A program made the translations under genes and the position numbers. From assembly GCA_009841255.1 (NCBI GenBank), contig VXMD01000067.1, positions 62,001 to 126,000 on the forward strand: a stretch of DNA of 64,000 bases, written 5' to 3'. Of the stretch, positions 1,030 through 15,666 are shown piece by piece (position 1 is the stretch's first letter; every line of letters starts with the position of its first letter). The DNA comes from Candidatus Poribacteria bacterium. GTDB lineage: Bacteria; Poribacteria; WGA-4E; WGA-3G. The notes beneath the pieces are model-generated. The model was not told where the DNA came from. It was given only the letters and a program-made list of their open reading frames with translations, and ran no database searches.

Positions 1030-2448
1030 CTATCTCCGCTCGTCGGCGATGGTAGACCCGGGCATGATGTAATGTTCGCCTTTGGTTGACTGAGCGACTT
1101 GACGTTGGAAGTTGTCGCCGATAGAACTACTTCGCATAGAGGTAACCCCACCGATGACGTAAACCTGCGCAAGCGCACCGCGACACACTGAAATCGCTCT
1201 GCCGGCGGTATACCCTTTTTCCGATCGTTTGCTCGTTGATTCATCTGTGACGATGATGAGGACGAGATTGCGCCCCTCTTCGGTCCGGAGTTTTGGTACG
1301 CCTTCAATGACGGCATCCAATAGGTGCTCATCACCGATTTTTGGGAGGCGAAATAGCGATTTCACCTGCTCTGGTTCCAATGGGGGTTTGGTTACAACAA
1401 TAGTACTTTCGCCGCCACCGACTGCCGCCCAAAACCGGATAATTCCAAATCGATAGTCCAGTCCCGTCGCCTTGAACACGGAGACCATGAGATCCAAACC
1501 ATCGCACGCGGCATCTGTTTTGGGTTCCATACTCAGACTGTAATCAAAGACGAACACAATATCTACTTTGCCAGGGTGACTCTGAACTAAGTTTTCCGCA
1601 ATACGCTTAAATATTCCGTCCACCCGGAGCAGTGCCTTATCGGCAATTGTCGCACCGCTCCGAATGCGCTGTCCATCCATCTTTCGCTGGTTCGAATCAA
1701 TTGGGTACCACATACCATTCGTTTCATCCGTAAGTTCCGCCTGAACCTTTTCGCTAATACCGATAAAGTTGAGTTGTACGTCGTTTTTTCGACAAAGGTC
1801 AATAATCTGTTCGCTAATTTTATTTTTCGCCTTTGTCTCTTTCCATGCAGTACGCATCCGCGAGTTGGTTACGACGACGAACTGCGTTATAATCCCTTCT
1901 CGGAATTCCAACTCATTCAAGCCTTTTACGATAGCGTCGAGTCCATATCCAGATTCAATGTTGTTTCCGGATTCGACGCGCATAGCTCGGAAAGCATTTT
2001 CAATATTGAGATAGTCAAATGTCCATTGATGGAAATTGACGCGGGGTTCCTCGTATACCGAATGAAAGCTCACCAAGGCAAATCTGTAGTCCATCGTTTT
2101 CGCCTCTATACCGGTGAGCATGTCAATGAACTTTTTTTCAAGGGCGGCGAGATGCCCTAACATTTGTCTGCTACCATCAATGACGAAAACGACATCCACT
2201 TTTGGATTTTGAGTGTATTGTGTTGCGCGTTTTGCGATGTCCTTAAGGCTTGCACCTATATCCGCTTTCAGGGTCTTGGTGTCCTCCTTCTTCGCTTTCG
2301 GATCTACCATGATCCTGTGTTTCCGTCGAGGCGGACGCACTTGTGCCGATGTTTGCAATGTGCATACCAACAAACCCACTACAAGCAAGCAGCATATCCA
2401 GCCTTTTTGGTGCCACTTGTCAACTAAACCTTGCTTAACAAAAGTCAT
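1030..2448 (-). CDS. Secreted protein with two von Willebrand factor A domains
   Basis: A 472-residue protein. Residues ~14-36 form a signal peptide or membrane anchor after a Lys-rich start. Two VWA domains follow. The first (about 84-250) starts VDVVFVIDGSRQM, where the metal site reads DGSRQ instead of DxSxS. The second (about 295-460) starts VDIVFVFDYSLSM with a full DxSxS. VWA domains bind protein partners through a divalent metal, so the intact second site suggests a metal-dependent adhesion or assembly role in the periplasm or on the surface. It is the last gene of the minus-strand operon: the start is 11 bp from the stop of the haem/barrel gene and is preceded by GGAGATCCT. The partner is unknown. 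Confidence 0.75.
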   Translation of the reverse strand: MTFVKQGLVDKWHQKGWICCLLVVGLLVCTLQTSAQVRPPRRKHRIMVDPKAKKEDTKTLKADIGASLKDIAKRATQYTQNPKVDVVFVIDGSRQMLGHLAALEKKFIDMLTGIEAKTMDYRFALVSFHSVYEEPRVNFHQWTFDYLNIENAFRAMRVESGNNIESGYGLDAIVKGLNELEFREGIITQFVVVTNSRMRTAWKETKAKNKISEQIIDLCRKNDVQLNFIGISEKVQAELTDETNGMWYPIDSNQRKMDGQRIRSGATIADKALLRVDGIFKRIAENLVQSHPGKVDIVFVFDYSLSMEPKTDAACDGLDLMVSVFKATGLDYRFGIIRFWAAVGGGESTIVVTKPPLEPEQVKSLFRLPKIGDEHLLDAVIEGVPKLRTEEGRNLVLIIVTDESTSKRSEKGYTAGRAISVCRGALAQVYVIGGVTSMRSSSIGDNFQRQVAQSTKGEHYIMPGSTIADERR

Positions 2449-2459
2449 AGGATCTCCGA

Positions 2460-3989
2460 TTAAAATTCAAATAGAAGCTGCGGCACAATTGTCGCACTGC
2501 GTCCGGTTTTTTCGATGTTGTTCATTTGGTAAACAATTCGTGCCAATGCGCCTTCTGTAAAATGCCACGTCAAAGCTCCACCGAGCGTTGTCCAAGTTTG
2601 GGCACTCTCTGTCCGGTTGAAGTTGAATGTTCCATACCTCTTGGTGTCTGGATTCCATACATCATATTTTAACCGAACATCCACGGTTTCTGTCAAGGGA
2701 ATTTCTGCGTGTAGATAATAACCTTCCACCGTCCTCGTGCGATTGCTTGACGTTATCGGTGTTTCAGCGTATTTTGAGAGATGCGTGTCTATTCCGCGTA
2801 CCCATTCAGCGGCGAGATCAAATCGCCAAATCTTGAAACTCGTTGCGAGCCCAACTCTGCGTTTGTAGAATAAGGCGGACGGATCCACATCACCGTTATT
2901 CGGATTGAAAGGATAACTATTGCCATCGAAGTAGGAACCCCCAAGCCAGATCCGCTTACCTAAGAGCGATAGCGTTCCGTTGACATGTAGAAATACAGGT
3001 GGACTGTTGTTTTGGATGGGTTTCAAAACGCCGCCACCACTGCCATGTGGACCAATTCGGATACCAGACTCTACCGTGCCATCAGTAATCGTGCGTAGCG
3101 AATCTGGTCCATCTGCGAGTGATAAAACGTAAGCAACGGGTCCAACGTATCCATTCAACTGTAATCCGCGATCAGAAATAAAACCGATATTTTTTCGGAC
3201 CAAATTATACAACGGATTTGCGGCGGCATCCGACTTTGTATCAATGCCGAAAGCGTGTCGAAAGCGTCCCACTTTCAAAGACGCGCCCTTCGGTAAAACC
3301 GGAAGTCCTGTGAGAATGGCGTAGACAAATCCATGGTCATCTGCGACTTGTGTGCCAAGAGGAGAGGTTGTCAGGAGTTGCTCCCCTAATATACCGACAT
3401 GGTCGCCTATATTTGTTGTCACGACGAACTCTGCAACGTGGATGAGTGTTGTACCGGTCCCCCAATTGTTTCCATCAGGCAGTAAATCGTTCCCGCGAGT
3501 GATTCGCCGAATATCCAATGCCCCACCAAAGATGAGATTACCGAAGGCGTCGTCAAGAAATCCAGAAGTATCTGTTTCTTGTGGCTCATCCGGCTCGTCG
3601 AAACTAAATATACTGTCATCGCCTTCCATGAGCGGATCATCTGTTTCGGCGGTTTTTTCTAAAGACTCGACATTTTCAGGTGTACTCGCTGGGTCACCAG
3701 GATAGGACCGGGCAATAATCTCAGCGATGTTGCTAAATCCATCTTTATCGGAATCTTCCTCCGCGATTCGGATGAACGTTGATGGATTCATCCCATTATG
3801 TAAAAATGCTCTGCCGTAAGGATTCGGTGCATCGCCGCCTTTCTTTGATGCATGGCAGACATTACATCCACTCGCCCATCTATATTCGCCACGGAACATC
3901 TTGTAAAAGGCAGGTAGTGCGAACGCGGAATTCTCAGCGATTAAGGCACAGAAAAGGGTTGCCAAGCAGAAAAGTAAAATTTTGCGCAT
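2460..3989 (-). CDS. c-type haem motif fused to an outer-membrane beta-barrel
   Basis: A 509-residue exported protein. A signal peptide (1-24) is followed by CNVCH (C42, C45, H46), the covalent haem-attachment motif. Next come NPYGRAF and a calcium-type loop DSDKDGFSN (79-87) of the thrombospondin-3 kind. An acidic linker (~105-145) leads into a long region of alternating residues, which ends in PQLLFEF as expected of an outer-membrane barrel. The parts suggest a porin-like barrel with a periplasmic electron-transfer or metal-binding head. Only one CxxCH is present and no distal Met ligand is obvious, so haem binding is inferred. It lies between the FMN-binding-like gene and the VWA gene, with AGAAGGA in front of the ATG. 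Confidence 0.7.
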   Translation of the reverse strand: MRKILLFCLATLFCALIAENSAFALPAFYKMFRGEYRWASGCNVCHASKKGGDAPNPYGRAFLHNGMNPSTFIRIAEEDSDKDGFSNIAEIIARSYPGDPASTPENVESLEKTAETDDPLMEGDDSIFSFDEPDEPQETDTSGFLDDAFGNLIFGGALDIRRITRGNDLLPDGNNWGTGTTLIHVAEFVVTTNIGDHVGILGEQLLTTSPLGTQVADDHGFVYAILTGLPVLPKGASLKVGRFRHAFGIDTKSDAAANPLYNLVRKNIGFISDRGLQLNGYVGPVAYVLSLADGPDSLRTITDGTVESGIRIGPHGSGGGVLKPIQNNSPPVFLHVNGTLSLLGKRIWLGGSYFDGNSYPFNPNNGDVDPSALFYKRRVGLATSFKIWRFDLAAEWVRGIDTHLSKYAETPITSSNRTRTVEGYYLHAEIPLTETVDVRLKYDVWNPDTKRYGTFNFNRTESAQTWTTLGGALTWHFTEGALARIVYQMNNIEKTGRSATIVPQLLFEF

Positions 3990-4046: not shown

Positions 4047-5024
4047 TTAATATGTATCCAAGTCAATCTCTTCCTCGCTAAACCGGAGGTGTGCCTGGTC
4101 GACTAAAGTAACAATGGCATCCCACTGCTCACGCGTTTCGTCAGAGATACCTTCTTTCTCAAGTGATTCAGCAAATTTAAGGAGATTTTCGCTAAATGTG
4201 TCTTGCAAGTAGATATACTCGTCGGTCTGATCTGCGTTTTTGGGTGGCTCGAAATTGGAGATCTCCTTCGCATATTTAGCAAGGCGTTTCGCCGCCGCAA
4301 TGGCTTTCTCCTCGCTCTCTTTTTCATCAAAATAGTCAACGACGACAAAATAGTCATCTATCATCATCGCCATGAGCGTTTTCAAGTCTTCTGCTTCGGG
4401 TATCTCTTCCTCTGGTGCCTCAGGTATGGGCACTTTTGCAACATCAGGTTTCTGTTTCTGTTTCAGGAAGAGCGTATAACTCATTACTAACGTTTTTTTC
4501 GGGATCAGAGCAACGGCGTTTGAAGCAGCTTCATGCCCGTCAGCAGCCGCAATATCTTCTCCAACTTTGAAAGCGTTGTCTATGCTCATACCAATGAATT
4601 GCTTGAGAAATTCATCTCCGGCAATTGCGTCGGATTCTTTGTGTTCATAGACTGCCACTTTTACAACTTTTCCCTTCATGTCAAGTCCGACTGCTCCCTC
4701 AATAACACCCAGCGGTCCCTTGGTATCAGCGAAAAACACCAAACCCATAGGCTTCTTTTTCTCGCTGATTGGAATATAGAAGATCGGTTTCTGGTCTTCC
4801 GACCGAAGTTTAGCCCCGAGTTCCTTTTCAATGGAGGCTATTTTGTCTGGAGTTAGTACAGCATTGCGCTGGACGAATTTCTTCGCTTCCGGGAAGATAT
4901 CGGCTAATTTTTGACCGGGCCACTCGGTTTCATGGGCGTTACCGAGTAGCGGCAGACTTGCTATAAAAAAAACGAGTACCCATAGGATGCCTTTACGAGG
5001 CTGGCAACAGGTTTGGAAAAACAT
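4047..5024 (-). CDS. Exported FMN-binding-domain-like protein (degenerate flavinylation site)
   Basis: A 325-residue protein with a signal peptide (about 1-30, ending LLGNAHE). Residues ~40-190 resemble the FMN-binding domain of RnfG/NqrC/NosR. They contain a strand segment (MGLVFFADTKGPLG), a segment on turnover of a product (VVKVAVYEHKESDA), and then DGHEAASNAVA where the family normally has the SGAT(S/T)xxS(R/A)AV flavin attachment site. The usual modified Thr is therefore not recognisable, and covalent FMN is doubtful. The C-terminal ~110 residues are acidic, helical and unassigned. AGGAG sits at normal spacing before the ATG. Being between a copper-type HxH protein and a haem/barrel protein, it may belong to an extracytoplasmic redox chain; that is inference. 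Confidence 0.6.
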   Translation of the reverse strand: MFFQTCCQPRKGILWVLVFFIASLPLLGNAHETEWPGQKLADIFPEAKKFVQRNAVLTPDKIASIEKELGAKLRSEDQKPIFYIPISEKKKPMGLVFFADTKGPLGVIEGAVGLDMKGKVVKVAVYEHKESDAIAGDEFLKQFIGMSIDNAFKVGEDIAAADGHEAASNAVALIPKKTLVMSYTLFLKQKQKPDVAKVPIPEAPEEEIPEAEDLKTLMAMMIDDYFVVVDYFDEKESEEKAIAAAKRLAKYAKEISNFEPPKNADQTDEYIYLQDTFSENLLKFAESLEKEGISDETREQWDAIVTLVDQAHLRFSEEEIDLDTY

Positions 5025-5053: not shown

Positions 5054-6094
5054 TTACTTTTCAACTTCGACCATGAAGCTGGGCCATAGAATTTGATCGG
5101 CATGTTTCAGTTGTCCGAAGATCTGATAAATTCCAGCTTCAGGAAACGTTGTCATCAGCATCACAGTGGGACCAAATTTTTCCGGTGTGATGCCGTAATG
5201 TTGATGATGCCCAGTCATAGCGGACTTTTTCATTTCGTGTCCGGCGTGCGGATCTTTCATCATCTTGCGGGTATCCTCAGTCCCAGGAACTGTCCCGTGC
5301 GTATGCACAATACCATCTAAGCGCGTGCTAACAATAGCGAAATGCATTGGTGCGTCCAGAAATGGAACGAGGTCGGTAAGTGGTTCTCCATTGCGCGAAA
5401 AATGGTAGGTAATGTGTACCATCTCGCTGGCTTTAATCCGTTCTGGTGCCTCTATTTTTGCGTAATATGTAGATGGACCCTTTTTATCGGTTAGAGAAAC
5501 GGCTTTCGTATACCGATCACCGCCTTCGTCAGGATAACCGAAAATGACTTTTTCACGGCGGAAATCTTCTGTCATGTTAGCCAATTTCTTCTCACCCACG
5601 ACATCCACATATACGTATTTCTCGAATTCGGCATCCGCTGTCATCACATCAACAGCGAGAATGTATCTTCCTGCTGCCGGAAATGTGAAGTGAACCGTAT
5701 ACCGTCCCTCTAATTCAGCCATGATGTCGCGAGATTCAAAATCTTCAGGGTGAATATGCCCAATAATCTGTAAATTCTCGCTGACGAGGAGCACATGCAG
5801 AACACGGGCATGATGCACCAAAAGGTCGCTAACGGGTTCATCTTTCGCATCGGTGAGATGGAAGGTCAGTTCTGCAGACCTTCCCGCTTGAACGGTTTGC
5901 GGTTCAGTCTGAAGCACGACCTTGAGAGATGCAGTGCTATGCATTTCATGAGCGTCGTGCGTCTTATGTTCTTGCGTATAACCTATCTGAACAAAAAACA
6001 GCACACCCACCGCTATCGCCATTGTGCAATACAGATAGGCAAACTTCGTCATAGGACGAAAAATCGAAGAAAACGTGAAATTCTGGGATTGCAT
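5054..6094 (-). CDS. Exported His-rich protein with two tandem HxH metal-binding-like domains
   Basis: The start is placed at the ATG at 6094, because GGAGGAACAACA precedes it; the longer frame from TTG 6112 would run through that ribosome site. The 346-residue product has a membrane/signal segment (~18-40) and then HKTHDAHEMH. Two beta-rich domains follow that resemble each other: the first carries LLVSENLQIIGHIHPE, the second AIVSTRLDGIVHTHGT. A His/Met stretch (DPHAGHEMKKSAMTGHHQHY) comes near the end. Paired HxH motifs plus His/Met runs are typical of periplasmic copper or other soft-metal proteins, but no family member is recognised with certainty. It starts 18 bp downstream of the barrel gene's stop and is surely co-transcribed with it. 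Confidence 0.65.
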   Translation of the reverse strand: MQSQNFTFSSIFRPMTKFAYLYCTMAIAVGVLFFVQIGYTQEHKTHDAHEMHSTASLKVVLQTEPQTVQAGRSAELTFHLTDAKDEPVSDLLVHHARVLHVLLVSENLQIIGHIHPEDFESRDIMAELEGRYTVHFTFPAAGRYILAVDVMTADAEFEKYVYVDVVGEKKLANMTEDFRREKVIFGYPDEGGDRYTKAVSLTDKKGPSTYYAKIEAPERIKASEMVHITYHFSRNGEPLTDLVPFLDAPMHFAIVSTRLDGIVHTHGTVPGTEDTRKMMKDPHAGHEMKKSAMTGHHQHYGITPEKFGPTVMLMTTFPEAGIYQIFGQLKHADQILWPSFMVEVEK

Positions 6095-6112
6095 TGTTGT
6101 TCCTCCGTGCAA

Positions 6113-7165
6113 TCAAAATGAATAGGTCGTTGCCAAAGAGATCAAATTGCCAAATTCGATTGTGTCGCCCCCATCGTAAAGGGTCTCTTGCGTCAGCGGA
6201 AACATGACATTGGCAGACACAGCGATATCGCTTAGCGTTACCACGGACATACCCAGTGCTGCCATGCTATAACGCAGCCCTGTGTTGATGTCGCGTTCTC
6301 CATTCCAAGAGGCAGGGGATTGATAAAATCCAAGATAGTTTCCGTTAAATGCAAGCCAATCGAAGAAGCGATATGTAAAGCCGGCCGTGTAAGTTAACTC
6401 TACCGATCCTCGATACGTCTTGCTGTTTTGATAGAATGGAAACGTTCCACGTGTAGAAGCCGTAAGCGTCATACCCCGGTAGAGGGGTAGGTTGTATTGC
6501 AAATTGGCAGTCGGGTTAAAGGTACCCGTACCGAACTGGATATGGAGATGTTCAATGCCTGCATCTCCAAGTATCCAAGGATTTTCCTCGGTCTTGCCCG
6601 TCGGAATTGTTGAACCTAAACGAGCCAACAGTAGATCATCATTCTTAAAGAATCCACGAACCTTATAGCCCAAGAACAGATCCACATCCGTAAGCCCGGT
6701 GTAGGTTTCATTTCGGTGATGGATATCCCGACTCCGCAAGATAGCTTGCTCGTCTTCAGGACTTACGGGATCAATCCACTCAATACTTGCGTCTTGATTT
6801 TTAACTGCATACGGAACGTTTGCCTGCAGTGTCCACTGATCGCTCAGCAAGTATTGTAATCCAACATCAATTCGGTAAGTGCTCAACGCCACATGGTGTC
6901 TATGTAAAGGCGCATCGATAACCTTGCCTGTTGGTGAAAGTCCTCTTGCTTCAAGATGTCCACCTTGTGCATCAGGAGACATCAACATATTGACATTTAC
7001 TCTGAACTGATCTATCTCTTGTGAAGCCAAACTGACTTCATTCATCAAACCGCTGGGCGGTAAGACGGGATTGCTTCAAGCGGGACAACTTTCTTGTGCG
7101 AATCCGAGAGAGATAAAAACCCAATTGAACAACATCGCGTATAAAAACAGACGTATTTTCATCAT
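6113..7165 (-). CDS. Outer-membrane beta-barrel with in-frame TGA at codon 30 (candidate selenoprotein)
   Basis: Reading from ATG 7165 gives a clean signal peptide (MMKIRLFLYAMLFNWV through GFA), then QESCPA, then TGA at 7078-7076. The same frame continues as SNPVLPPSGLMNEVSLAS without shift for 320 codons to a TGA stop at 6113-6115. The downstream part alone (from TTG 7048) would lack any export signal, although it is plainly a beta-barrel: paired amphipathic strands, GYKVRGFF, RLGSTIPTGKTEENP, and a terminal TTYSF. The TGA sits where Cys-x-x-Cys would be expected, giving Cys-Pro-Ala-X. Two hairpins follow: ACCGC-CCA-GCGGT (7061-7049, loop 19 nt after the TGA) and UGAAGUCA-GUU-UGGCUUCA (7040-7022, loop 43 nt after). 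Alternatives are a nonsense mutation or a base error. TGA is an ordinary stop elsewhere in the window, so global recoding is excluded. Confidence 0.6.
7022..7061 (-). promoter_or_regulatory. Two hairpins downstream of the in-frame TGA (possible SECIS region)
   Basis: Both hairpins lie in coding sequence. The proximal one has 5 GC-rich pairs and a CCA loop at 20-22 nt after the TGA. That is within the 16-37 nt distance usual for bacterial SECIS elements, but its loop lacks the usual G in the first two positions. The distal one has 8 pairs (one G-U) and a GUU loop, so the G is present, but the loop begins 44 nt after the TGA. Neither is a perfect match. Confidence 0.3.
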
Positions 7166-7344: not shown

Positions 7345-7785
7345 TTAGCACTGGATAAACGGAGGACCTCTATGGGATAGAGGGTGATCGGGGAAAAATG
7401 TGGAGGTTAGGGGTGCAGGGGAATTCTTGAACGATTCCCAAGGTATAACAGGTAAAGTTGCTGAGATAGGAAGAATTGAGACGAGAGACTGCTCCATCGA
7501 CTCACGGGATTCGTGTGTGTTGTATCTGTCGTCTGGAAAAACAAGTTCCAAACCTTTTGAGCAGCACGACTCACCGCTCTCTGATGGAGTTTCCGCTTCA
7601 CCCGCTGTGCTTGTTTTGGAGCTTTGGCAACAGGTTGATCGGGTATCGGTATTTCCACTCAGGACCCTTTGAGATAGGTCGTGGCAGGACTTTTCCTCTA
7701 AAGTTGCACATAGAAACGGACATACCGAATAAACGTACAATAGTCCCACAAGTAGAATGAGAATTTGCTGATGTTTTCGTAACAC
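7345..7785 (-). CDS. Small Cys-rich exported protein, unknown
   Basis: A 146-residue product. Residues ~7-27 are a signal peptide or membrane anchor (LLVGLLYVYSVCPFLCA). The mature part has an isolated Cys and two vicinal pairs (TCCQ, SCCS) in a Ser/Thr/Glu-rich stretch. The C-terminal half is Pro-rich and ends DHPLSHRGPPFIQC. Vicinal Cys pairs in small exported proteins often mean metal binding or disulfide clustering; I recognise no family. It is the first gene after a good minus-strand promoter (7846-7875), and the rest of the operon (HxH protein, haem/barrel) fits a metal theme. The GGAG in front is about 18 nt from the ATG, longer than ideal, so the start is less certain. Confidence 0.55.
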   Translation of the reverse strand: MLRKHQQILILLVGLLYVYSVCPFLCATLEEKSCHDLSQRVLSGNTDTRSTCCQSSKTSTAGEAETPSESGESCCSKGLELVFPDDRYNTHESRESMEQSLVSILPISATLPVIPWESFKNSPAPLTSTFFPDHPLSHRGPPFIQC

Positions 7786-9240: not shown

Positions 9241-9307
9241 TTTACAATGTCTACAAGCATAAAGATTCCTATAGGCGTTGGGTGCTATCACAACGGAGGA
9301 AGATATC

Positions 9308-10267
9308 ATGGCGTATATTAAAATTCCGAAGGGATGGGAAATCCCTGAAAATCAGGCGACATCTGAGTCAGACTATATCAATCGCCGAAAATTCATCAAA
9401 GACTTGGGAACAGCAGGCGCGGGTGCGTTGCTCTTTTCGAGTTCAAATGCGTGCGCCCAGAATAAAGGGGTCGAAAAGCAGTTAGAACCTTTCCGTGCGC
9501 AAAAACTTGATGCCGAAAATAATGCAAACTTCACTGTAAATCGACAGATGACCGATGAAATAATTGCCGCTACCTACAATAATTACTATGAGTTTACCAA
9601 TAGGAAAAGCACTGTTTGGAAAAAGGTAGATAAATTCAGGACACGTCCATGGGAAGTTGAAATATCGGGATTGGTCGAAAAGCCGATGACACTGGATGTG
9701 GACGATTTAATCAAACAGATGCCGATCGAAGAGCGCATCTACCGATTCCGGTGCGTTGAAGCGTGGGCGATGGTGGTACCTTGGATCGGCTTTCCAATGA
9801 AAGCGTTGCTCGAAAAGGTTCAACCGACAGCCGATGCCAAATATGTTCGGATGCTCACATTTCTGGACCCTGACATGGCACCCGAACAAAACGACCTACG
9901 CATGCCGTGGCCCTACTTTGAAGGACTAACGCTCGCTGAGGCAATGAACGACTTGACGCTCCTCACTGTCGGCATCTATGGGCATATTCTGCCGCCACAG
10001 CATGGGGCACCGATTCGGCTGATCGTGCCTTGGAAATATGGATTTAAAAGTATCAAATCCATTGTCAGTATTGAGTTGACCGATGAGAAGCCGCGGACGT
10101 TTTGGAATACGCTGGCGCCGCGGGAGTATGGCTTTGACGCAAACGTCAACCCCAACGTGCCGCATCCACGCTGGTCACAAGCCAACGAACGGATGATCGG
10201 AACGAATGAAAGACACCGAACGATGATTTACAACGGCTATGGCAGTTATGTGGCACATCTCTATTAA
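9308..10267 (+). CDS. msrP: MsrP/YedY-like molybdoenzyme (protein-methionine-sulfoxide reductase catalytic subunit)
   Basis: The start at ATG 9308 is chosen because GGAGGAAG lies 5 nt upstream. The 319-residue product has a twin-arginine signal (NRRKFIKDLGTAGAGALLF, residues ~26-44), so a folded cofactor-loaded protein is exported. The sulfite-oxidase-type Mo-cofactor domain is clear: RPWEVEISGLV, YRFRCVEAWAM with the Mo-ligating C149, and LIVPWKYGFKSIKSI. This matches YedY/MsrP (334 residues in E. coli), which repairs oxidised Met in periplasmic proteins. The haem-b membrane partner MsrQ, which normally feeds it electrons, is not next door: the following genes are a serpin and a peptidase. 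Either the partner is elsewhere or another donor is used. Confidence 0.88.
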   Translation: MAYIKIPKGWEIPENQATSESDYINRRKFIKDLGTAGAGALLFSSSNACAQNKGVEKQLEPFRAQKLDAENNANFTVNRQMTDEIIAATYNNYYEFTNRKSTVWKKVDKFRTRPWEVEISGLVEKPMTLDVDDLIKQMPIEERIYRFRCVEAWAMVVPWIGFPMKALLEKVQPTADAKYVRMLTFLDPDMAPEQNDLRMPWPYFEGLTLAEAMNDLTLLTVGIYGHILPPQHGAPIRLIVPWKYGFKSIKSIVSIELTDEKPRTFWNTLAPREYGFDANVNPNVPHPRWSQANERMIGTNERHRTMIYNGYGSYVAHLY

Positions 10268-10304
10268 GACAAGTCTTCAAAGTTACAGAGATAGCAGGAA
10301 ACAG

Positions 10305-11561
10305 ATGGATAGAAAACAGACAACCACAAAAACTTTCTTTGGACTCTTCTGCTCGGTGGTACTACTATTTGCCGGATGTGATGAGTTTCGCATCGACATG
10401 TTTGATAAGACGGACGTTAAACTTGAGATTGGCTCCATTGATACCCCTGTTATCACAGCGAATACACAATTTGGTTTTAACCTGTTCGATGAAATCCGTA
10501 AAACTGAGCAGGATAAAAATATTTTTATTTCGCCGTTCAGTGTTTCTCTCGCTTTAGCGATGACACTCAACGGTGCAGCCGGGGAAACTGAACAGGCAAT
10601 GACCGACACATTGCAATTGCAAGGCTTAGACTCCGAAGCGATTAACATTAGCTATGCCGCATTGCGACATGCACTCTTGACAGCAGATCCGAAAGTGACA
10701 CTCGCTATTGCAAACTCGCTTTGGGCGCGCCAAGGTGTCCCATTCAATCAGAGTTTTCTGTGGCGAAACGCCCAATTTTTTGGTGCAGAGATCTCAACAT
10801 TAGATTTTACGGATCCACGCATTGTAGAAACGATTAATCAGTGGGTGGATACCAATACGAATGGTAAGATTACAAAAATCCTTGATGAAATCGACCCAGC
10901 GGCGGTGTTGTTCCTTATTAATGCTATCTACTTCAAAGGCACGTGGCAGGAAGAGTTTGACCCATCAGAGACACGAGAGGGTCCTTTTCATCTCGCAAAT
11001 GGTGATGTAAAACAGGTGCCAATGATGCGGCAGGAGCGTGAGTATCCATATTACCGAGGGGAAAATTTTCAAGCGATTCGCCTCGCTTATGGTGATGGGC
11101 AGACAGGTATGTATATTTTCCTCCCGGACCGTGAATCCGATCTCAATAACTTCTTAGAGAATTTGAACGCCGAAAGTTGGGAGCATTGGATGTCACAGTT
11201 TCATGAGCAAGACGTGTCTCTCGTCATGCCGAAATTTAAGTTGGAATATGAAAAGGAACTTAACGATACACTGAAAGCACTCGGTATGGGTATCGCGTTT
11301 GATTCAGGACGCGCAGATTTCAGTCGGATGGCAATCTTGAGTGAAAATTTGTATATCGGGGAAGTGCTTCATAAAACCTTCGTCGAGGTCAACGAGGAAG
11401 GGACTGAAGCTGCAGCGGTAACCAGTGTTGGGGTTAGGGTTACGAGTGTGCCACCGCCGCCGATTCCTTTTACTATAGACCGCCCGTTTTTCTTTGCGAT
11501 TCGTGATAATAAGACAGAAACGGTGCTTTTTATGGGGCGTGTTGTAGACCCAGCTCCTTAG
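10305..11561 (+). CDS. Lipoprotein serpin (serine/cysteine protease inhibitor)
   Basis: ATG 10305 is favoured over upstream in-frame starts because it gives a classic lipoprotein signal ending LLFAGC (C25), with AGCAGGA upstream. The 418-residue product is a full-length serpin: NIFISPFSVSLALAMTLNGA at the start, LINAIYFKGTWQEEF in the shutter/sheet-A core, VSLVMPKFKLEYE, and the hinge EVNEEGTEAAAVTSV before the reactive-centre loop, followed by RPFFFAIRD. The small residues in the hinge are those of inhibitory serpins, so real inhibition by loop insertion is expected. The loop is about 3 residues longer than in alpha1-antitrypsin and includes four prolines, so I cannot name P1 safely. The membrane-anchored inhibitor lies just upstream of a metallopeptidase gene and may guard the periplasm or cell surface against proteases. 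Confidence 0.9.
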   Translation: MDRKQTTTKTFFGLFCSVVLLFAGCDEFRIDMFDKTDVKLEIGSIDTPVITANTQFGFNLFDEIRKTEQDKNIFISPFSVSLALAMTLNGAAGETEQAMTDTLQLQGLDSEAINISYAALRHALLTADPKVTLAIANSLWARQGVPFNQSFLWRNAQFFGAEISTLDFTDPRIVETINQWVDTNTNGKITKILDEIDPAAVLFLINAIYFKGTWQEEFDPSETREGPFHLANGDVKQVPMMRQEREYPYYRGENFQAIRLAYGDGQTGMYIFLPDRESDLNNFLENLNAESWEHWMSQFHEQDVSLVMPKFKLEYEKELNDTLKALGMGIAFDSGRADFSRMAILSENLYIGEVLHKTFVEVNEEGTEAAAVTSVGVRVTSVPPPPIPFTIDRPFFFAIRDNKTETVLFMGRVVDPAP

Positions 11562-14597: not shown

Positions 14598-14873
14598 ATG
14601 ACCGGAGAGGCATTGGGTTTAGTTGAAACGAGAGGCTTAGTTGGGAGCATCGAAGCTGCCGATGCTATGGTGAAAGCGGCAAATGTCCATCTTATTGGTT
14701 ATCAGCAAATTGGTGCTGGCTACGTGACTGTCATGGTCCGTGGCGATGTCGGTGCCGTGAAGGCTGCAACGGATGTTGGTGCTGAGGCTGCGGCGCGCGT
14801 CGGCGAAGTGGTGTCCGTTCATGTGATTCCGCGGCCGCACGCTGAAGTCGAAACTATGTTGCCAAAATCTTAA
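14598..14873 (+). CDS. Bacterial microcompartment hexameric shell protein (BMC-H)
   Basis: A single 91-residue BMC domain: [20 protein letters not shown], then [20 protein letters not shown], as in PduA, EutM and CcmK. Hexamers of such proteins tile the facets of a protein-shelled organelle. The central pore residues read G39-A40-G41, where PduA has Gly-Ser-Gly, so the pore lining is less polar. GGAGG is 14 nt upstream of the ATG, a slightly long spacing. It is followed by PduL and a flavoprotein. No second hexamer, trimer (BMC-T) or pentamer (BMC-P) gene is in the window, so the shell must be completed from elsewhere. Confidence 0.95.
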
Positions 14874-14952
14874 ATTAGGGAGTCCGCGGATTCATTGGAC
14901 GCTTCTGGTTCCATGGCGTCCAGTATATCCTAACCAAGAAGGCAGAACATAG

Positions 14953-15666
14953 ATGCCAGACCGTGCCCTTGTTGAGTTGATTACCCAGCGTGTTGTTAAT
15001 AGACTGACGACAGATCAGGCATGTAGTGGTTGTGCGTTGCGGACGTGTGATGCAGGAAACCGCGCGTGTGATGTTGTTGCACAACAGCAGCAGATTCCCG
15101 TTGGGGTTTCAGCACGACATGCCCATGTAACGCAGGAACACCTTGAAATTCTATACGGTGCCGGACATCAACTGACTGTCTACGCCCCGCTCTATCAACC
15201 CGAAGCATTCGCTGCGAATGAAACGTTAACGGTCGTTGGGAAACGGATGCGTGCTATTGAAGCGGTTCGTATCCTTGGTCCAGTGCGAGATTATTCTCAA
15301 GTCGAAGTCGCTCAAACGGAAGCAATCCGGCTTGGATTAAATCCACCCATTCGAGACTCAGGTGACCTGGTCGGTGCCGACCCTATTACCCTCGTTGGTC
15401 CCGCTGGAAGCATTTATTTGCCAGAAGGGGCAATCTGTGCGACGCGACACATCCACATGACGCCTGGAGACGCGAATGCCCTCGGTATTCGCGAGGACGA
15501 ACTTTTAAAAGTGCATTTCCGTGGCGAGCGCGCCCTAACGTTTGAAAACGTTCGTCCCAAAATTCATGAAGATTATGTGCTTCAGATGCACTTAGATACC
15601 GACGATGCTAACGCAGCAGGTTTAAAAGGCGGTGAACCCGTTGAAATCGTCCGCGATGCCGGTTGA
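14953..15666 (+). CDS. pduL: PduL-type phosphate acyltransferase with a Cys-rich insertion
   Basis: A 237-residue product. Residues 4-20 (RALVELITQRVVNRLTT) form an amphipathic helix like the encapsulation peptides that target cargo into microcompartments. The catalytic domain then shows the zinc histidines in SARHAHV (H56, H58) and CATRHIHM (H166, H168), as in PduL. PduL exchanges CoA and phosphate on an acyl group inside the organelle, recycling CoA. Between helix and domain is CSGCALRTCDAGNRAC with C24, C27, C32 and C39, a four-Cys cluster not part of the PduL fold. It could bind zinc or an iron-sulfur centre, or form disulfides. AGAAGG precedes the ATG. Confidence 0.92.
   Translation: MPDRALVELITQRVVNRLTTDQACSGCALRTCDAGNRACDVVAQQQQIPVGVSARHAHVTQEHLEILYGAGHQLTVYAPLYQPEAFAANETLTVVGKRMRAIEAVRILGPVRDYSQVEVAQTEAIRLGLNPPIRDSGDLVGADPITLVGPAGSIYLPEGAICATRHIHMTPGDANALGIREDELLKVHFRGERALTFENVRPKIHEDYVLQMHLDTDDANAAGLKGGEPVEIVRDAG

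Follow-up and report, generated by a model that had tools for sequence, protein, structure and literature searches.

Selenocysteine (Sec), a seldom-used 21st amino acid, has been predicted in outer-membrane proteins before, in the GSU2204-family CxxCH/MtrB-PioB-like barrel selenoprotein (NF041027) and in the FCYXU-type TonB-dependent receptor (NF049945), which also bears a CxxU motif (PMC13188914). Here we analyse a gene at 6113-7165, minus strand, of a 64,000-nucleotide stretch of a Candidatus Poribacteria genome (contig VXMD01000067.1, positions 62,001 to 126,000; the whole stretch is called the window below, and its positions are counted within it), in which a signal peptide and an outer-membrane barrel are joined across an in-frame TGA that is very probably read as Sec. 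A sequence-only reading of the window had proposed this gene as a candidate selenoprotein and had called Sec in an exported outer-membrane protein unusual; rare it is, yet it had already been predicted in the two families just named. At E values up to 1, the models of these two families match neither the window protein, nor the second copy of its gene in the same genome (L048), nor L082; in NCBIfam as a whole the window protein has no match, and L048 hits only barrel models, far below cut-off.

SelL is one example of a UxxU double selenoprotein. Others are the Prx-like, NF041115 metal-binding and FmdB-like proteins (PMC13188914). Our family resembles these in having two Sec two residues apart and differs from them, since they are not listed as barrels, in that the motif here stands at the start of a mature outer-membrane barrel. 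Sec-containing metal-transport proteins are inner-membrane or periplasmic components, not outer-membrane channels. Those linked to heavy metals include the mercuric transport protein, the SO_0444 Cu/Zn efflux transporter and SaoB/SaoX (PMC13188914); our barrel would be like them in placing Sec in a metal-linked transporter, and we found no sequence relation to them.

In architecture the barrel is like the COG4313 channels (Pput2725, PDB 4RL8; SphA; TcpY), which are 12-stranded and have a segment ahead of the first strand. The lumen of 4RL8 is blocked by its N-terminal 14 residues (PMC4493636). The Sec barrel is unlike COG4313/PF13557 channels in sequence (11% identity; neither the window protein nor a two-Sec paralogue matches a Pfam family), in the length of the N-terminal segment (about 30 residues versus 14) and in the CxxU or UxxU motif which that segment carries. 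The family is not in the 2026 table of 119 prokaryotic selenoprotein families (PMC13188914), nor in those passages of the deep-Sep paper that were found (PMC12013277); a partial literature search found nothing that pairs Poribacteria with 'selenoprotein' and two papers that name Poribacteria and mention selenocysteine once each, and an earlier description elsewhere is possible. Outer-membrane selenoproteins have thus been predicted twice before, and what is new is a two-Sec outer-membrane channel.

A TGA conserved across Poribacteria

6113-7165, minus strand: selenoprotein gene for an exported 12-stranded outer-membrane barrel, 350 residues counting the TGA as Sec (from the frame, homologues and a structure model)
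7097-7165, minus strand: signal peptide MMKIRLFLYAMLFNWVFISLGFA (from the translation, aligned in homologues; cleavage after GFA judged by eye)
7085-7087, minus strand: Cys codon TGT at motif position 1, a second putative Sec codon (TGA) in 47 of 84 homologous copies
7076-7078, minus strand: in-frame TGA at motif position 2, inferred Sec codon

Read from 7165 to 6113, the frame runs MMKIRLFLYAMLFNWVFISLGFAQESCPA[TGA]SNPVLPP... for 350 codons with the TGA at 7078-7076 as its sole internal stop, and it ends in a TGA as well; the stretch QESCPA[TGA]SNPVLPP joins the signal peptide to the barrel-like chain in this one minus-strand frame. The sequence-only reading had described just such a frame, from signal peptide through Cys-Pro-Ala-TGA-Ser-Asn-Pro to barrel, and our re-reading agrees; its start at ATG 7165 becomes one of several, since translation may begin there, at ATG 7162 or at ATG 7180. 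Gene callers that end at TGA would split such a gene.

How widely is the TGA kept? Homologues occur in 66 of 98 genomes by protein search and in 67 of 85 Poribacteria genomes by profile search, and the profile search found none, all-Cys relatives included, in 302 genomes outside the phylum. A scan of named genomes gave at least 80 homologous loci, all of them Candidatus Poribacteria among the matches listed, and a DNA search of a plasmid collection with the gene returned no match. Among the orthologues fetched from the genus, all that include this part of the gene have the same CPA-TGA-SNP, which makes the TGA a real feature of the frame, as had been claimed. When the homologues are aligned at this column (motif position 2), the codon is TGA in 84 of 84 copies, a count that includes L083, an otherwise decayed copy, and the codons on either side of it (Ala, Pro/Gly, Ser, Asn, Pro) show silent variation. 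At motif position 1 the only alternative to TGA (47 copies) is a Cys codon (37 copies: TGT 29, TGC 8), and the terminal stop is TAA in 51 copies, TAG in 17 and TGA in 16. On a tree built from 82 copies, the codon changes 0 times at position 2, 2 times at position 1 and 21 times at the terminal stop. The contrast between 0 and 21 changes is unlike a plain stop and is as expected of a Sec codon; moreover, TGA still serves as the terminator of the window gene, so its role here is not merely that of a sense codon.

The second copy in the window genome, L048, has two in-frame TGAs (S-TGA-G-A-TGA-SNP), as do all intact copies but one of other genera and families. Judged from these codons, the family is largely UxxU, with CxxU characteristic of one orthologue group, so that the CxxU motif first noticed holds for the window's own group and less well for the family as a whole. 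Sec and Cys have been exchanged at position 1 twice independently, giving Cys in the CPA-TGA orthologues and CSA-TGA in L080.

Beside the intact copies there are decayed ones, namely L083 (G068:C20:9090-10115) and the fragments G038:C2:632522-633145 and G045:C1:1198170-1198804, which indicates some ongoing loss of the family. L056 (G029:C5:4400-5479) has a third in-frame TGA, MMR[TGA]FDAQ, where relatives have Trp; it could be a mutation or a sequencing error, or else encode a third Sec. The Sec barrel also has weak similarity (E about 1e-6) to a more distant family of barrels whose N-terminus is rich in Met and His. For this family, seen in L097 (1590-2618) and in comparable copies from several genomes, Pfam and NCBIfam give no match.

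Machinery, hairpins and the probable decoding of the TGA

A search of the window genome (5.73 Mb, 87 contigs) for selA, selB, selC and selD found all four: SelA (8.6e-156), SelB (2.6e-105), SelD (8.7e-108) and, adjoining selB, the tRNA-Sec gene selC (78 bits, anticodon UCA). Of the phylum's 85 genomes, 81 have SelA matches, in some cases weak family matches only. SelD, too, is predicted to be a selenoprotein (KCAG[TGA]ASK; L109, minus strand, about 2440-1420), and its gene in the window genome is without a strong textbook hairpin of the selenocysteine insertion sequence (SECIS) type.

Downstream of the TGA two hairpins are candidates for the SECIS:

7043-7067, minus strand: hairpin 1, SECIS candidate, core 7061-7049, apical loop 19 nt past the TGA
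7022-7040, minus strand: hairpin 2, SECIS candidate, TGAAGTCA-GTT-TGGCTTCA, loop 43 nt past the TGA, with compensatory changes

The region folds with -20.1 kcal/mol, compared with -12.1 for shuffled sequences (z -3.0), and the corresponding region of L048 also folds better than its shuffles (z -2.1). In hairpin 2, 98.5% of cells are paired and changes on both sides occur in 21 cells against 3.2 in shuffles, a stronger covariation than that of hairpin 1. Its codons are almost frozen (Ser44 AGT in 68 of 68, Ser47 TCA in 77 of 81, Glu42 GAA in 75 of 78), and codons 31-50 show nearly the lowest silent variation in the gene (rank 4 of 149 stretches, the lowest stretch overlapping them). An Rfam search of the hairpin region gave nothing meaningful. 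Published constraints on bacterial SECIS elements include a G in the first two loop positions, a spacing of 16-37 nt and an energy of at most -7.5 kcal/mol (PMC13188914); our test required all four published constraints in a single hairpin.

We consider it highly probable, from sequence comparison, that the UGA at 7078-7076 is decoded as Sec. The Sec machinery, the TGA in every copy, the replacement of Sec by Cys or the reverse at position 1 and the hairpins all support the candidate selenoprotein of the earlier reading. Some findings pull the other way. Cys occurs at the position-2 column in 0 of 84 homologues; of the Cys or TGA anticipated there, only TGA appears, and Cys is confined to position 1. 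All four SECIS constraints are found in one hairpin in just 12 of 84 copies, the window not among them: hairpin 1 has the correct spacing and often lacks G in its first loop positions, and hairpin 2 has the G but lies 40-43 nt from the TGA. What follows the TGA, where a SECIS had been anticipated, is a pair of conserved hairpins that match the bacterial consensus loosely, and either of the two may be the SECIS. Were the TGA instead a genuine stop, with an N-terminal 29-mer and the barrel as separate products or with a pseudogene, a TTG at 7048 could start an internal open reading frame; the barrel would then be without a signal peptide, and the codon is never TAA or TAG in any copy, although the terminal stop changes so often, and the frame is kept across it with residues conserved on both sides in silently varying codons. 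We regard a genuine stop as very improbable. Some form of readthrough is needed, and one might suppose that a suppressor tRNA or a reassigned code inserts another amino acid; the 16 homologues, the window gene included, that terminate in TGA, the alternation of TGA with Cys codons only at position 1 and the complete Sec machinery make this scarcely credible. Sequencing or assembly error and a pseudogene are ruled out by the retention of the TGA in 84 copies from separate genomes, and code reassignment by the genes of the same family that TGA terminates.

Barrel, neighbours and a possible plug

The AlphaFold model of the window protein (mean pLDDT 74.5) is a barrel of 12 strands, the first at residue 54, preceded by an N-terminal segment of about 30 residues in which the Cys/Sec pair occupies residues 27 and 30. 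Its best solved structural match is the COG4313 channel 4RL8 (Z 24.6, 2.7 Å over 252 residues), with FapF also among the best solved neighbours, and a sequence search of the PDB gave no match. The pair falls in the segment that corresponds to the lumen-occluding N-terminus of 4RL8. Seven His residues of the barrel are invariant in a 26-row alignment (H70, H88, H90, H149, H150, H206, H208).

The genes around the Sec barrel gene are:

7345-7785, minus strand: upstream gene for a small Cys-rich protein, upstream in 27 of the 27 orthologue loci whose contig reaches that far
5054-6112, minus strand: downstream gene for a YtkA-like exported protein, likelier start ATG near 6094
4047-5024, minus strand: downstream gene, FMN_bind/RnfG-like by a weak match that falls short of the family cut-off
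2460-3989, minus strand: downstream gene for an exported protein with a CxxCH (heme-type) motif
1030-2448, minus strand: downstream gene for a von Willebrand A-domain (VWA) protein

In 18 of 28 orthologue loci the genes downstream are instead a YHS protein, two OEP outer-membrane efflux proteins and a CusB-like adaptor with HMBD domains. One such locus, read further, continues with a CusA/CzcA pump of the resistance-nodulation-division (RND) type (941.9 bits against a cut-off of 701.45), and its cluster ends with an FMN_bind-like gene. Two of the 28 loci have no assigned layout because their contigs end. L176 (11678-13044), from another genus, has no Sec barrel at this place: there the YtkA-like gene comes immediately after the Cys-rich one. 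Running divergently from the Sec gene, in the window as in many orthologue loci, are genes for an MsrP-type methionine sulfoxide reductase (9278-10267, plus strand; NF003767) and a serpin-like protein (10239-11561, plus strand; by translation). Farther along the window, at 14598-15666 on the plus strand, are genes that, by their translations alone, resemble parts of a bacterial microcompartment: one for a small shell-type protein, the other for a PduL-like enzyme.

What could a Sec pair do at the start of a channel? We lean, by a modest measure, towards Sec decoding combined with a Sec pair in a pore plug, there to bind a soft metal or to serve as a redox gate; what suggests this role for the segment is structural analogy, together with the neighbourhood and the invariant His residues. 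An RNA element past the UGA would recruit SelB and tRNA-Sec, so that signal peptide and barrel form one chain, and signal cleavage would leave the mature N-terminus QESC-P-A-U (QESU-G-A-U in paralogues). The segment of about 30 residues before strand 1 would then fold into or against the pore, as in 4RL8, and the Cys-Sec or Sec-Sec pair would thereby sit at the periplasmic mouth. There the pair, with some of the seven His, would most likely bind a soft metal ion of the Cu, Ag or Hg type; alternatively, a reversible selenenylsulfide or diselenide would gate the channel. That such a plug switch opens or closes the channel on a metal or redox change seems to us rather doubtful when taken as a proposal of its own, and we know of no other protein that uses Sec for channel gating outside the thioredoxin fold. 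From the efflux-type loci we infer that the CxxU form in the window's genus is tied to heavy-metal handling.

Several observations weigh against such a metal-binding plug. The N-terminal segment is poorly modelled (pLDDT mostly below 50), and its placement in the pore is thus by analogy. Eight of the 28 orthologue loci share the window's layout (YtkA, FMN_bind-like, CxxCH, VWA) and have no efflux module; the two-Sec paralogues follow an aldo/keto reductase gene in most loci and, in some of the genera, precede the genes for an oligopeptide-type ATP-binding cassette (ABC) binding protein and permease. The metal link is therefore indirect. The pair might rather be an oxidoreductase-like or electron-transfer site, not a metal ligand, with operon partners passing the electrons. 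CxxU and UxxU are redox motifs in many selenoproteins (PMC13188914), and the window operon has its CxxCH protein and the weakly matching FMN_bind/RnfG-like one, but the barrel is without a thioredoxin-type fold and metal-efflux genes replace the CxxCH protein in most orthologues, which leaves such a site possible, if not probable. A further suggestion is uptake: the barrel would import a metallophore or a small organic compound that the Sec pair recognises, and the two-Sec paralogues would feed the ABC importer next to them. In the window's genus and two related ones, most loci do have an SBP_bac_5 binding protein and a permease after the paralogue, and COG4313 channels have been proposed to import hydrophobic molecules (PMC4493636); we nevertheless think uptake improbable, as the ABC genes are not beside the barrel in another genus and the CxxU form lies in an efflux cluster in most orthologue loci.

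Taken together, Poribacteria appear to make a family of outer-membrane channels with one or two Sec at the start of the exported protein. This adds a selenoprotein family, mostly two-Sec, that is present in most sequenced Poribacteria and unlisted in current family libraries and in the 2026 inventory, and its two hairpins in tandem would put the strictness of the bacterial SECIS model to the test. If the Sec pair does lie in a channel plug, selenocysteine chemistry would extend to outer-membrane channels and to soft-metal handling in sponge-associated bacteria.
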